Shown here: one piece after another, positions 7,859 through 56,008 of the stretch
How positions within the stretch are numbered: the stretch's first letter is position 1
How the letters are laid out: every line of letters starts with the position of its first letter
Origin: Caldimonas mangrovi
Lineage (GTDB): Bacteria; Pseudomonadota; Gammaproteobacteria; Burkholderiales; Burkholderiaceae_C
NCBI RefSeq assembly: GCF_023721835.1
Contig: NZ_JAMKFE010000002.1
Coordinates: forward strand, 372,001-436,000
Reading direction: 5' to 3'
Length of the DNA stretch: 64,000 nt
Translations under genes and position numbers: made by a program
Notes under the pieces: generated by a model
Told to the model about the DNA's origin: nothing
The model's input: the letters and a program-made list of their open reading frames with translations, nothing else
Database searches by the model: none

Positions 7859-8516
7859 TGCGGCGACGCCGGAGCCGCTGAGCTTCACGGTGCACAGCAT
7901 GCCGACGCCGGCGGTGGAAGACGATCGCCGCACCCGCGTGGGACGCTTCAAGATGCTGTTGGTGCTGCTGGTCTGCGCTGCGCCGGTGATCGCGTCGTAC
8001 TTCACCTACTACGTGATCCGGCCCGAGGGCCGCACGAACTACGGTGAACTGATCCTCCCGCCGCAGCCGATGGCCGAGCTGCCGCTGCAAGACCTGCAGG
8101 GCCGACCCGTGCCCGCTGCGTCGCTGAAGGACCAATGGCTGCTCGTCACGGTCGCCGGTGGCGCCTGCGATGCGGATTGCGAGCGCAACCTCTACCTGCA
8201 GCGTCAGTTGCGCGAAACGCTGGGCAAGGACCGCGACCGTCTCGACAAGGTCTGGTTCGTCACCGATGACGCCGCCGTGCGTGCATCAGTGCTGCAGGCC
8301 ATCACCGGCGCGCAGGTGCTGCGCGTGCCGCGACAGGCGCTGGCATCGTGGCTTGCACCTGCCGCGGGCCACCGGCTCGACGACCATCTCTACGTCGTCG
8401 ACCCGATGGGCAACTGGATGATGCGTTTTCCGGCCGACGCCGACCCGGCGAAGATCAAGCGCGACCTGTCGAAGCTGCTGCGAGCCTCGCAGCACTGGGA
8501 CCGCGCGGGGCGCTGA
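7812..8516 (+). CDS. SCO-like membrane-anchored thioredoxin-fold protein
   Basis: 234 residues: a cytoplasmic tail, one transmembrane helix (about 46-66), then a thioredoxin-like domain with LPLQDLQGRPVPAASLKDQW. The region aligned with the Sco copper motif reads GGACDADCERN, so a CxxxC pair is present, but the later parts of the Sco pattern are weak. Proteins of this type sit between surf1 and ctaA in Burkholderiales and are called cytochrome oxidase assembly or transmembrane proteins. The start at 7812 overlaps surf1; ATG 7899 is an alternative. Confidence 0.7.
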   Translation: MSGSNSSAPGSAARADAATPEPLSFTVHSMPTPAVEDDRRTRVGRFKMLLVLLVCAAPVIASYFTYYVIRPEGRTNYGELILPPQPMAELPLQDLQGRPVPAASLKDQWLLVTVAGGACDADCERNLYLQRQLRETLGKDRDRLDKVWFVTDDAAVRASVLQAITGAQVLRVPRQALASWLAPAAGHRLDDHLYVVDPMGNWMMRFPADADPAKIKRDLSKLLRASQHWDRAGR

Positions 8517-51613: not shown

Positions 51614-53464
51614 ATGAAGCAATTGGCTGGCATCACCGTACTCGTGCTCGGGCTGGGAGACTCCGGCCTTGCAATGGCGCGCTGGTGCGCGCGATGCGGC
51701 GCGAACGTGCGCGTGTGGGACTCGCGCGAGGTGCCGCCGCAGGCCGTGTCCCTGAAGCAGCACCTGCCCGACGCACAGCTGTCGACCGGCCCGCTGAGGC
51801 CCGATCTGATCGACGGCGTGCAGCTTGTGCTGAAAAGCCCGGGTCTCGCGCCGAGCGACGAGCGCCTGGCACCGCTGCTCGCGCATGCCCGGGAGCAGGG
51901 CGTGCCGGTGCAAGGCGAGCTCGACCTGTTCTCGCAGGCGCTGGCCGACCTGAAGGCCGAGCGCGGCTACGCGCCCAAGGTGATTGCGGTCACCGGCACC
52001 AACGGCAAGACCACGACGACTTCGATGGCGGCCCTGCTGATCGAGCGCACCGGCAAGCGCGTCGGCATGGCGGGCAACATCGGTCCCACGATGCTGCAGA
52101 CGCTCGCCGAGGCGTTGGACCTGGAGCCCGCGGCCCTGCCGGGCGACGCCGGGCAGGACACTGCTGCTGCAGAGGCGCTGCCGGACGAGCCGGCCGCAGA
52201 ACCCGACGCGGGCACGCTCGCGGTCGACCCGGATGCGGTCGACGAACACGCGATCGACGACGACGCGCAGGTCGACGGCGGCGATGTGGCAGACCTGCAA
52301 GCGATCGACCCAGCGTCGGACGATGCCGGCCCGGGAGCCCCCGAGGCGAGCGCTCCGCTGGTGTTGCCCGAAGACGAGATCTCGTCGCTGAACCTGGTGC
52401 CGCCGCCCGCGCCTGCGCCGGTGTTCGAGCACCTGCCGGACGTGTGGGTGCTGGAACTGTCGAGCTTCCAGCTCGACGGCGTGCAGGGCTTCGAGCCCAG
52501 CGCGGCCACCGTGCTGAACGTCACCCAGGACCACCTCGACTGGCACGGTTCGCTGCCGGCCTATGCCGCGGCCAAGGCGCGCGTGTTCGGCGCCGACACG
52601 GTGATGGTGGTCAACCGCGACGACCCGCTCGTCGAGGCGATGGTGCCGCCCCCGCAAACGGTCAAGGTCGGCAAGGGCCGTCCGCCGCGCATCGTCGAGC
52701 GCCACGTCGTGCGGTTCGGGCTGGATGCACCGAAACGCCCCGGCGACTATGGCCTGGTCACCGAGAACGGCATGGCCTGGCTGGTGCGTGCGATGGAGGC
52801 CGACGAGACCTTGAAGTCGGGCCGCACGCGCCGTCGCGAAGAAGAGGAAGAAGAACTGCACATCCAGCGCCTGATGCCGGCCGACGCGTTGCGCGTGCGC
52901 GGTCGCCACAACGCGGCGAACGCCTTGGCCGCGCTCGCGCTCGCGACCTCGATCGGCTGCCCGCTCGCGCCGATGCTGCACGGCATGCGCGAATACGCCG
53001 GCGAGCCGCACCGCGTCGAGTATGTCGCCACCGTCAACGGCGTCGACTTCTTCGACGACAGCAAGGGCACCAACGTCGGCGCCACGGTGGCCGCGCTCAA
53101 CGGGCTGGGGCTGGACCGCGCGCCGGCCCGGCTCACGGTGATTCTCGGTGGCGATGGCAAGGGGCAGGATTTCTCGCCACTGGCCGAGCCGATCGCGCGC
53201 CATGCACGGTTCATTGCGCTGATCGGTCGCGATGCCGACGTCATCGAACAGACGCTGTCCGCCACCGGTGTGGCTTTGCAGCGATTCGACACGCTGCCTG
53301 CCGCGGTGCGCGGCTGCGCGGAACGCGCCCATGCCGGTGATGCGGTGCTGATGAGCCCGGCCTGCGCCAGCCTGGACATGTTCCGCAATTACGGTCACCG
53401 CGCCGAAGTGTTCGTCGCCGAGGTGCACGCGATGGCGGCCCAGCAGGGGGAGATCGCCTCGTGA
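51614..53464 (+). CDS. murD: UDP-MurNAc-L-Ala-D-Glu ligase MurD, with large acidic insertion
   Basis: 616 residues, far longer than usual (about 440-510). The normal order is visible: [31 protein letters not shown], then [26 protein letters not shown] and the C-terminal domain. About 100 residues (roughly 170-269), rich in Asp, Glu, Ala and Pro, are inserted between GNIG and LELSSFQ. A second, smaller charged insertion (RRREEEEEE) lies near residue 406. Both are in frame, and the catalytic parts are intact. It adds D-Glu to UDP-MurNAc-L-Ala. Confidence 0.94.
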
Positions 53465-54732
53465 GCGACACCACCGCAGCCTCGGGCTGGGACGCCTTCA
53501 AGACGCGCCTCGCGGGCATGGCCGGCAGGTGGTTCAGCCGCGGCGGCAACCAGGACCTGCCGGTGCGCGACTGGGTCTCCACCGGCCAGCCGGCGCGTGC
53601 GCAAGGCTTCGACCAGACCATGGTCTGGGTCATCGTCGCGCTGCTGGCGCTCGGCATGGTGATGGTCTATTCGGCCTCGATCGCGTTGCCCGACAACCCT
53701 CGCTTCGCACGTTATTCGCCGAGCTACTTCCTGAGCCGGCACGTCCTGTTCATCGCGATGGGGTTCGTTGCGGCGCTGGTGGTGGTGCAGGTGCCGATGC
53801 AGGTATGGGAGAAGTACGCGCCGTGGCTGTTCGTCGCGTCGCTGCTGCTGCTGATCGTCGTGCTGTTGCCCTTCGTCAGCAAGCCCGTCAACGGCGCGCG
53901 CCGCTGGATCCCGCTGGGCTTCATCGGCTTCCAGCCGTCCGAGCTCGCCAAGCTGGCGATCGCGCTGTACGCCGCGAACTACATGGTGCGCAAGATGGAG
54001 GTCAAGGAGCGCTTCTTCCGCGCCGTGATGCCGATGGCGTTCGCGGTCGGTGTGGTCGGTCTGCTGCTGCTGGCCGAACCCGACATGGGCGCCTTCCTCG
54101 TGATCGCGATGATCGCGATGGGCATCCTGTTCCTCGGCGGCGTCAACGGCCGCATGTTCTTCCTGATCACCGCGGTGCTGGTCGGCGCCTTCGTGGTCAT
54201 GATCGCCCTCAGCGACTGGCGGCGCGAGCGCATCTTCGCGTACCTGAACCCGTGGGACGAGAAGTACACGCTGGGCAAGGCCTACCAGCTGTCGCACTCG
54301 CTGATCGCGTTCGGGCGCGGCGAGATCTTCGGGCAGGGCCTGGGCTCCAGCGTCGAGAAGCTGCACTACCTGCCGGAGGCGCACACCGACTTCCTGCTCG
54401 CGGTGATCGGCGAGGAGCTCGGCTTCATCGGCGTCGCGGCGGTGATCTTCGCGTTCTTCTGGCTGACCCGGCGCATCTTTCACATCGGGCGCCAGGCGAT
54501 CGCGCTGGACCGGGTGTTCTCGGGGCTGGTGGCGCAGGGCATCGGCATCTGGATGGGCGGTCAGGCGTTCATCAACATGGGCGTGAACCTGGGCGTGCTG
54601 CCGACCAAGGGGTTGACGCTGCCGCTGATGAGCTATGGCGGCTCGGCCATCTTGCTGAACTGCATCGCGATGGCGGTGGTGTTCAGGGTGGATTTAGAAA
54701 ACAGGCAGTTGATGCGAGGAGGCCGAGCATGA
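53461..54732 (+). CDS. ftsW: Septal peptidoglycan polymerase FtsW
   Basis: 423 residues, SEDS family, about ten helices. Signatures are [20 protein letters not shown] and [20 protein letters not shown] with the catalytic Asp region, ending in the usual [11 protein letters not shown] tail. It polymerises lipid II at the septum with FtsI. The GTG start overlaps the murD stop. Its stop lies in the first repeat unit of the ftsW-murG duplication. Confidence 0.95.
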
Positions 54733-54905
54733 ACTGCCTGCTTCGCCAAAACCGGCAAGGCACCGCGCAGCGGGGGCCAGGATGCGCAGCATCCGGTGAT
54801 GCGAGGAGGCCGAGCATGAACTGCCTGCTTTGCCAAAACCGGCAAGGCACCGCGCAGCGGGGCCAGGATGCGCAGCATCCGGTGATGCGAGGAGGCCGAG
54901 CATGA
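54710..54905 (+). repeat. Tandem repeat of the murG start region (87 bp, 86 bp, partial third copy)
   Basis: Unit 1 is 54710-54796 and unit 2 is 54797-54882; a third partial copy begins at 54883 and contains the true murG ribosome site and ATG. Each unit carries TGATGCGAGGAGGCCGAGC followed by ATG, plus about 65 bases containing the hairpin GGATGC-GCA-GCATCC. The copies differ at a T/C and in a G run: five G (unit 1) against four G (unit 2). They look recent. Confidence 0.95.
54729..54905 (+). CDS. Putative 58-residue ORF created by the repeat
   Basis: Starts on an ATG overlapping the ftsW stop (ATGA), with GAGGAGG a few bases upstream identical to the murG site, and stops on a TGA overlapping the murG ATG. 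It is made of two 29-residue halves starting [16 protein letters not shown] and [16 protein letters not shown], and ends MRGGRA like FtsW. It has the spacing of a coupled gene but resembles no family known to me. It may be translated by accident of the duplication. Confidence 0.4.
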
Positions 54906-56008
54906 ACCGCCACCTCGTCATCATGGCCGCCGGCACCGGCGGCCACATCATCCCCGGGCTGGCCGTCGCCCACGAGATGCAACGCCGCGGCTGGACCGTG
55001 AGCTGGCTGGGCACGACACAAGGCATGGAGAACCGCCTGGTGCCGTCCGCCGGCATTCCGCTGGACACCATCGGCTTCACCGGCCTGCGCGGCAAGGGCC
55101 TGCTGCACACGCTCACGGGCGGTATCCGCATGCTGGCCGCCTTCGTCGCATGCTGGCGCATCTTCGGCCAGCGCCAGGCCAGCGCGGTGCTGGGCATGGG
55201 CGGCTACGTCTGCTTCCCCGGCGGCGTGATGGCGGCTGCGCGCTTCCTGCCGCTGGTGCTGGTCAACGCCGACGCTGCCTTGCTGATGAGCAATCGCGCG
55301 CTGTTGCCGGTCGCCGACATGACGGCCTTCGGTTTCGACGGTGCAGCAGCCACCGTCAACAAGCGCGCGGTCGTCACCGGCAACCCGGTGCGCGAGGAGA
55401 TCGAGGAGATCCCCGTGCCGGCCGAGCGCTTCGCCGGCCGTCAAGGCCCGCTGAAGGTGCTCGTCGTCGGCGGCAGCCTGGGTGCGAAGGTGCTGAACGA
55501 AACACTGCCCAAGGCGCTGGCGTTGATTCCGAAGGAACAGCGCCCGCTGGTCATCCACCAGACCGGGCAGCTCAACCGCGACGCGGTGAAGGCGCTCTAT
55601 GCGGCCGAGGGCATCGACCCGGACAACGGCGAAGTCGAGGTGCTGCCCTTCATCGACGACATGGCACGTCGCCTGTCCGAATGCGACCTGATTGTCTGCC
55701 GCGCAGGTGCAGTCACGGTGAGCGAGCTGTGCGCAGCGGGCGTGCCCAGCGTGCTGGTGCCGTTGATCGTCAGCACCACGTCGCACCAGCGCGACAACGC
55801 GCTGTACATGGCGCAGCACGGTGCGGCCGTGCATCTGCCGCAGGCCGAGCTGACGCCCGAGCGGCTGGCCGAGACGCTGCAGGGTTGCGATCGCCCCGCG
55901 CTGCTGGCGATGGCGGAAAAAGCCCGCACGCTGGCCCGGCCGCGTGCCGCGGCGAAGGTGGCCGACGAGATCGAGAAGCTCGCCAACAAGAAGGGGGGCG
56001 CGCCATGA
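54902..56008 (+). CDS. murG: Lipid II-forming GlcNAc transferase MurG
   Basis: 368 residues, GT28. N-terminal [15 protein letters not shown], then [32 protein letters not shown] and [11 protein letters not shown] with [10 protein letters not shown] in the UDP-GlcNAc-binding half. It adds GlcNAc to lipid I. The start is the third copy of the duplicated ribosome site; the frame stays open upstream through unit 2, but the normal MurG N-terminus begins here. It overlaps murC by ATGA. Confidence 0.95.

Follow-up and report, generated by a model that had tools for sequence, protein, structure and literature searches.

Mycobacterial interspersed repetitive units (MIRUs), for which Supply et al. 1997 is reportedly the original paper, and leader-peptide attenuators, which place a short ORF and alternative hairpins 5′ of a gene, are two described systems with which a repeat at a gene start can be compared. 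In the passages of one source that treat it (PMC12548453), the MIRU is a short repeat found inserted at start codons; its internal ORF is coupled, at −4 nt (NTGA), to the gene that follows. The beta-proteobacterial repeat element (BRE) of Bordetella and Comamonadaceae, as portrayed in sections of another source, is 75–91 bp when full-length, GC-rich and tandem in variable number; it is mostly intergenic, with some copies within coding sequences, and occurs in 1 to 29 copies per genome, single-copy genomes included, and those sections mention no coupled ORF (PMC3110155). REP elements in 3′-UTRs of Bradyrhizobium appear in an excerpt of a third source (PMC5082802). In the open-licence PMC literature we found no description of a translational-coupling repeat at ftsW–murG in the dcw cluster, nor of coupling combined with repeats in Burkholderiales. 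An earlier sequence-only reading of the DNA studied here, which knew of no described example, agrees with this for the dcw cluster, but the general kind has been described, as the MIRUs, in the passages cited above (PMC12548453).

The ftsW–murG junction

The DNA analysed here (the window) is a stretch of 64,000 nt from Caldimonas mangrovi, whose draft genome comprises 53 contigs and 5.5 Mb. The junction between ftsW and murG in the window is probably a two-unit translational relay cassette, MIRU-like in layout. We refer to this ftsW–murG cassette as type A, of which the window has two tandem copies (Table 1). The interval between the genes consists of one unit of 87 nt and one of 86 nt, and copies of the segment TGATGCGAGGAGGCCGAGCATGAAC stand at 54710, 54797 and 54883, spaced by 87 and then 86; the third copy, after unit 2, has one mismatch near the 3′ end of the segment. 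Tandem Repeats Finder reports eight arrays in the window and gives this one the top score, 383 against 69 for the runner-up. The two units differ twice, in a run of five or four G and in one substitution (C/T at 54744/54831). The 58-aa ORF that spans them has an ATG overlapping the ftsW TGA (54730–54732) and a TGA (54903–54905) overlapping the murG ATG. In all of this, the three segment copies, the unit lengths, the G runs and the ORF, the positions agree with the sequence-only reading, which had also calculated that a fifth G in unit 2 would place 54729 in the murG frame, 58 codons upstream, and give MurG a 58-residue in-frame extension; the arithmetic is correct.

Table 1 Features at the ftsW–murG junction, in positions of the window
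Feature	Position	Strand	Basis or remark
ftsW	53461..54732	+	
Hairpin P1	54697..54744	+	Covariation over 35 sequences and fold
P1, 5′ arm	54697–54719		ftsW tail, 'A'
P1, loop	54720–54722		AGG
P1, 3′ arm	54723–54744		Inverted copy, A prime
58-aa micro-ORF	54729..54905	+	Two fused units, ATGA overlap at both ends
Unit 1	54729..54815	+	87 nt, 0 mod 3, has the extra G
Unit 2	54816..54901	+	86 nt, 2 mod 3 like every last unit counted
G5 run of unit 1	54772..54776	+	GGGGG
G4 counterpart, unit 2	54859–54862		GGGG
A2 of unit 1	54747..54758	+	Direct ftsW-tail copy, CAAAACCGGCAA (QNRQ) against GAAAACAGGCAG (ENRQ)
Predicted hairpin hp1, unit 1	54759..54778	+	C-GCA-G loop
hp1 counterpart, unit 2	54846–54864		
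Predicted hairpin hp2, unit 1	54780..54794	+	GGATGC-GCA-GCATCC
hp2 counterpart, unit 2	54866–54880		
H2	54883..54905	+	Third Shine-Dalgarno/ATGA segment copy, murG initiation site
murG	54902..56008	+	

A search of the genome for further copies of the unit, as the sequence-only reading had proposed, yielded none beyond the array. With blastn no second array was found elsewhere in the genome, the best place outside being a stretch of 26 bases (E 0.005), and a model of type A gave only a partial match outside the array (E 0.005). No relative of the array was matched among the plasmids searched. No Rfam 15 family was assigned to it, the two matches in 54000–55600 being both under the gathering score and outside the array. 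The MurD encoded in the window (51614–53464) has 616 aa, which exceeds the usual MurD length, and contains a long acidic stretch rich in Ala, Pro and Asp at about residues 168–275.

Unit anatomy and predicted RNA structure

Type-A elements share an order of parts: the ftsW tail copied in inverted and then in direct orientation, a pair of hairpins, and a re-made Shine-Dalgarno sequence and start. In the window the first ATG is followed by AACTGCCTGCTT, a near-inverted copy of the ftsW tail AAACAGGCAGTT, and by a short loop; 3′ of this loop stands CAAAACCGGCAA, which copies the ftsW-tail stretch GAAAACAGGCAG directly; two predicted hairpins, each with a C-GCA-G loop, lead from there to the re-made Shine-Dalgarno/ATGA. 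The sequence-only reading had described the array as a duplication of the murG start, a description that misses the unit body of about 62 nt, which begins with the inverted and then the direct ftsW-tail copy and is structured. As the body is derived from the ftsW tail, a simple duplication of the murG start is ruled out.

In the predicted fold a single hairpin, P1, takes in the ftsW tail with its palindromic ATGA segment as well as the inverted copy; it carries GGAGG (54718–54722) at the tip and the ATG in the stem, on the 3′ arm. Over 35 type-A sequences the P1 partners are paired in 94.7% of 769 cells, compared with 34–47% when partners are slid by 1–3 columns, and there are 89 both-side changes against 27.5 ± 4.9 in shuffles (0/500). 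Because the P1 stretch is nearly palindromic DNA, this covariation could stem from template switching in replication and not from selection on the RNA. The two-hairpin body is present in 34 of 41 distinct bodies, and 52 of 75 body loops are C-GNA-G or C-GNNA-G on stems that differ; the fold energy of the bodies is moderately better than that of shuffles (median z −1.59; z < −1 in 28/41). The H stem, formed by ftsW-tail codons, has 9.33 of 10 pairs at junctions with type A inserts and also at those with inserts of a second class, type B (n = 12 and n = 12), against 6.87 in empty junctions (n = 85), a difference with p = 1.6e-9, uncorrected for relatedness; 12 of 141 junctions, those without an M.GG tail, were left out of this comparison.

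Occurrence in related genomes

Within the genus (nine genomes), type A is found in the window only. Five of the eight other members have an empty NTGA junction at ftsW–murG, and the others carry two units of a different element (G002), a 440-nt insert (G005) and an insert with about 35 nt of ftsW tail repeated at its flanks (G006). This absence, together with the patchy spread of type A, indicates that the element is dispensable. A model of the unit built from sequence (R1) has matches in 55 of 399 family genomes at E ≤ 0.001, 30 of them at E ≤ 1e-5, and a model that includes the P1 structure (R2) has matches in 51 of 399; both totals include weaker matches, and the loci inspected are those of the 30 R1 genomes with E ≤ 1e-5. 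When 274 genomes drawn from across the class were searched under strict filters, R2 recovered the window's own genome only. Both genes are visible in 28 of the 30 inspected R1 loci, and in 28/28 of these the element lies between ftsW and murG with the start/stop chain unbroken. Interspersion of type A was not seen, either in the window's own genome, which has a single array, or in the 28 two-gene loci, where ftsW–murG is the only placement. The encoded peptide is mostly M..LF.QN[RK]x...M[RH]GGR[AV]*, with a QN[RK]x and a tail that tend to resemble the FtsW tail of the same locus. Unit number ranges from 1 to 3 across 36 type-A junctions, and single units are present in the single-contig assemblies G080, G262, G268 and G338. 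On a tree built quickly from pieces of FtsW and MurG, type A occupies 12 tips with at least 10 changes and type B occupies 12 tips with at least 11. One gain of type A and vertical descent with many losses through direct-repeat recombination would also yield this scatter.

An unselected survey of the family matched MurG in 146 of 150 genomes and provided 144 junctions, of which 141 were parsed; the omissions were G025 and G112 (MurG match without N-terminus), L216 and L225 (ftsW out of view) and L279 (mis-parsed, gap −131). At an insert cut-off of at least 70 nt, 41 of the 141 junctions have inserts: 12 of type A (window included), 12 of type B, which has a different body and a similar ftsW-tail ending, 10 other micro-ORFs and seven in-frame open stretches. 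Four junctions with gaps of 59–68 nt to the GTGGH motif were taken as neither insert nor empty, and the tree labels 45 junctions as having any insert, these four sub-threshold ones included. Empty junctions are plain NTGA overlaps in 95 of 96 cases. The frame or chain is retained in 41/41 inserts, 34 as micro-ORF relays through NTG start/stop links and seven as possible MurG extensions. With shuffled bodies and random length change, 22.3 ± 3.1 of 41 would retain it by chance; under this null 54% of inserts already stay in frame, which makes for a moderate excess per insert. Kinship inflates the survey counts, and the members of type A, like those of type B, belong to one family and do not count as independent events. 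Cassettes appear to occupy the same spot in many relatives, independently varied, with the hand-over frame nearly always kept. The comparison of relatives suggested by the sequence-only reading thus brought out varied in-frame inserts at ftsW–murG, with type A in 12 of the 141 parsed family junctions, and its idea that the repeat bears on translational coupling gains from the position of the repeat in the ftsW-to-murG hand-over and from a frame kept across relatives.

Reading frame of the units

The last unit has 83 or 86 nt and is 2 mod 3 in 36/36 type-A junctions, and so it ends on the murG NTGA; this count omits L067 (type A then type B) and L147, L150, G148 and G362 (contig ends). In six arrays from six genus groups (g1, g87, g107, g62, g86, g141), each inner unit exceeds the last unit by one base: 87/86 (window), 84/84/83 (L137), 87/87/86 (L248), 84/83 (L335), 84/83 (L146) and 84/84/83 (G148). 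Equal-length arrays are 83/83 (L034, L036) and 86/86 (L079). L146 was counted as one 167-nt unit and split by hand into 84+83, and G148, whose array has its 5′ end at a contig end, was added by hand; with both counted, nine inner units are 0 mod 3 and three are 2 mod 3. Two lengths were not seen among type-A junctions: 1 mod 3 in an inner unit, at which the chain would be broken, and 0 mod 3 in a last unit, at which the array would be fused to MurG. The extra base lies at differing sites in the four arrays that align cleanly. Since the 86-nt unit matches the frame of the relatives, unit 1 most likely bears the derived +1.

The one-base difference between units that the sequence-only reading had pointed out gains support which that reading could not see: arrays of five other genera show it too, between inner and last units. 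Its proposal of a G-run switch that fuses the ORF to MurG finds no support in the type-A junctions, where the last units are all 2 mod 3 and the extra base lies in inner units and fuses these units together; as a caveat, 7 of the 41 survey inserts, of other types, are open in the MurG frame and could extend MurG. As read from the arrays compared, the G5/G4 difference in the window is one case of a recurrent pattern in which units are fused together and the MurG start is untouched.

Other junctions and other elements

Junctions were compared in 80 named relatives and the window (81 loci), not every junction being available in each. Gaps of at least 50 nt, with the chained fraction in brackets, occur at ftsW–murG in 26/81 (24/26), murG–murC in 17/81 (17/17), mraY–murD in 5/73 (3/5), murD–ftsW in 4/80 (4/4, two of which are merely longer FtsW N-termini), murC–ddl in 5/72 (5/5), ftsQ–ftsA in 3/65 (0/3), ddl–ftsQ in 26/70 (0/26) and murF–mraY in 0/70. 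The four normally coupled junctions (murD–ftsW, ftsW–murG, murG–murC and murC–ddl) are chained in 50 of 52 cases. Unchained at ftsW–murG are L048, in which a 440-nt insert breaks the chain, and L127, with a TAGTG overlap that is not NTGA. Because the ddl–ftsQ gaps are mostly ordinary spacers (median 43), ddl–ftsQ and ftsQ–ftsA form a weak control.

At murG–murC, 11 of the 17 loci have a micro-ORF that starts like the MurC N-terminus and ends with NTGA at murC (L059, L061 (loosely), L063, L070, L074, L084, L103, L112, L117, L120 and L125), doubled in tandem in L063, L117 and L120. Several murG–murC micro-ORFs carry CTTCGTCG...CGACGAAG inverted repeats. L120 also has a further repeat (GGGGCCCCGCGCAGCGGGGATCGAAGCGAGCG, peptide RGAPRSGDRSER) that is found twice at murD–ftsW (8248–8470) and once at ftsW–murG, in coupled micro-ORFs.

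Another element, type C (peptide MSAARPPEGA...), is tandem and in frame with NTGA overlaps and occurs at ftsW–murG in the window's genus (L010); by eye it is akin to the CGGGCCGCCCCAAG...CCCCTCGGGG inserts and unlike type A. In G002, of the same genus, an element of about 63 nt (MSAARPPEGARTAVRSTE...) is interspersed at six places, often in tandem (L337, L344/L345, L347, L348/L349, L350 and L351). There, 11 of 13 matches of a 15-nt type-C pattern belong to elements, and a control pattern has three matches. Units in G002 start at an NTGA, where either a long open frame or an upstream unit ends, or follow another unit in tandem, and those at L350 and L351 are open into the next gene; these elements resemble an interspersed family of the MIRU kind. 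The type-C pattern has one match in the window's own genome, which is not an element. In L224, L236 and L148, type C is open in the MurG frame (e.g. MTHMSAARPPEGAK...), and MurG may there gain an N-terminal extension or start internally. The ftsW–murG inserts of about 440 and 490 nt in L013/L048 (two handles for one place) and L054 contain a palindrome of the CTTTCTTTG...CAAAGAAAG type.

Relay reading and alternative explanations

The geometry of the junction, in which the ftsW stop ATGA is the start of the micro-ORF and the micro-ORF stop ATGA is the start of murG, with such chains kept in the inserts of relatives, is that of a relay. P1 may discourage free initiation, so that mainly ribosomes exiting ftsW would enter the micro-ORF, and murG would then be initiated by the ribosome leaving it. 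Every unit closed by its own ATGA would bring a further stop-restart and should reduce the MurG yield compared with that of FtsW; with the +1 base, inner units would be fused into one ORF, so that an array of any length could cost just one extra step. The direct Shine-Dalgarno/ATGA repeats would permit gain and loss of units. As to whether the cassette is a useful throttle on MurG or a tolerated repeat, we lean to the latter, with tuning possible.

A serious alternative, though we favour it less, is that the array is a mutational scar without function, produced by hairpin-driven template switching and tandem slippage at a palindrome-prone ATGA, with selection removing only frame-breakers. Such an origin would account for the patchy spread over the 12 type-A tips, for inverted and direct copies of local sequence, which fit template switching, for the presence of types B, C and unlike inserts at the same point, and for the varying unit number; moreover, the ftsW tail is itself palindromic, and more so at type A and B inserts. 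It sits less easily with the constant last-unit length and the recurrent hairpin order across genera, which ask for common descent or constraint, and with the A2 copy, where synonymous differences are in excess (27 of the 48 codons that differ, against 13.4 ± 2.9 when the gene copy alone is constrained).

A wider version of the relay reading seems to us doubtful at present, namely that a locus-specific RNA and micro-ORF relay sets the MurG:FtsW ratio, with unit copy number and single-base frame changes as a heritable dial, convergent in several genera, and that the relays copying MurC act likewise for murC. If it were true, each coupled unit would divide the ribosome flow, and a one-base insertion in an inner unit would reset the number of steps.

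The differing A2 codons bear on a further proposal, that the micro-ORF encodes a functional peptide resembling the FtsW tail. The 27 synonymous differences also exceed the 8.3 ± 2.5 of a null that constrains neither copy, and at residues 9–10 the fraction of codons that agree is 0.70 for the local FtsW tail and 0.27 for tails taken from other genomes. Among 40 codons at which the murG–murC micro-ORFs differ from the MurC N-terminus they copy, 20 are synonymous, against 6.0 ± 2.2 in a null constraining neither copy (13 units at 11 loci, the second unit of L120 omitted and L059 and L061 loosely aligned). We nevertheless consider such a peptide unlikely: the codon nulls have no transition or GC-bias term, the mid-section looks unrelated between lineages by eye, and most family genomes are without it.

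Still less probable is an attenuator-like switch in which A prime has two alternative partners, the ftsW tail (P1) and the downstream copy A2 (P2), and so senses ribosome passage. P2 does covary, with 81.9% of cells paired and 51 both-side changes against 23.6 ± 4.3, but P1 is far more stable (mean −31.9 vs −5.8 kcal/mol). At positions in which A2 departs from A, pairing with A prime is retained in 12 of 60 cells against 15.7 expected randomly, and the differences favour third codon positions (20, 9 and 32 at positions 1, 2 and 3), which together make P2 pairing a likely side effect of the homology between A2 and A.

A wrong unit number or G-run length from assembly is very improbable, in spite of the draft state of the 53-contig genome and the split of the G148 array across two contig ends, given that the 173-nt array lies inside a 526-kb contig, that single units occur in single-contig assemblies and that the +1 pattern recurs in other genomes.

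These loci offer a natural replicated experiment on stop-restart translation, at a junction of essential genes that across dozens of species holds 0, 1, 2 or 3 relay units, which are either fused or separate. The differing unit numbers should make the cost of a stop-restart step and the reading-frame constraint directly measurable.

Comparison with described elements

Type A and BRE, compared by description only, are similar in length and tandem, but type A has a coupled ORF, a feature absent from the BRE sections referred to above (PMC3110155). The one array of type A in the window's own genome speaks neither for nor against BRE, as single-copy BRE genomes are listed too (PMC3110155). Type A differs from attenuators in that its alternative hairpin, P2, is unsupported beyond copy homology. 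The nearest described kind is the mycobacterial MIRU, insofar as the source passages portray it (PMC12548453). Type A resembles it in having an internal ORF with NTGA overlaps at both ends, tandem copies and a unit number that varies between genomes, a likeness that rests on the layout described in those passages and not on sequence (PMC12548453). It differs in its placement, seen at ftsW–murG alone and not interspersed, whereas type C in G002 is interspersed, in containing pieces of its own upstream gene, one inverted and one direct, together with P1, hp1 and hp2, and in its host, the Burkholderiales. If the relay reading is right, the MIRU principle would reach beyond mycobacteria, in the form of a cassette bound to one locus and made from its own upstream gene.
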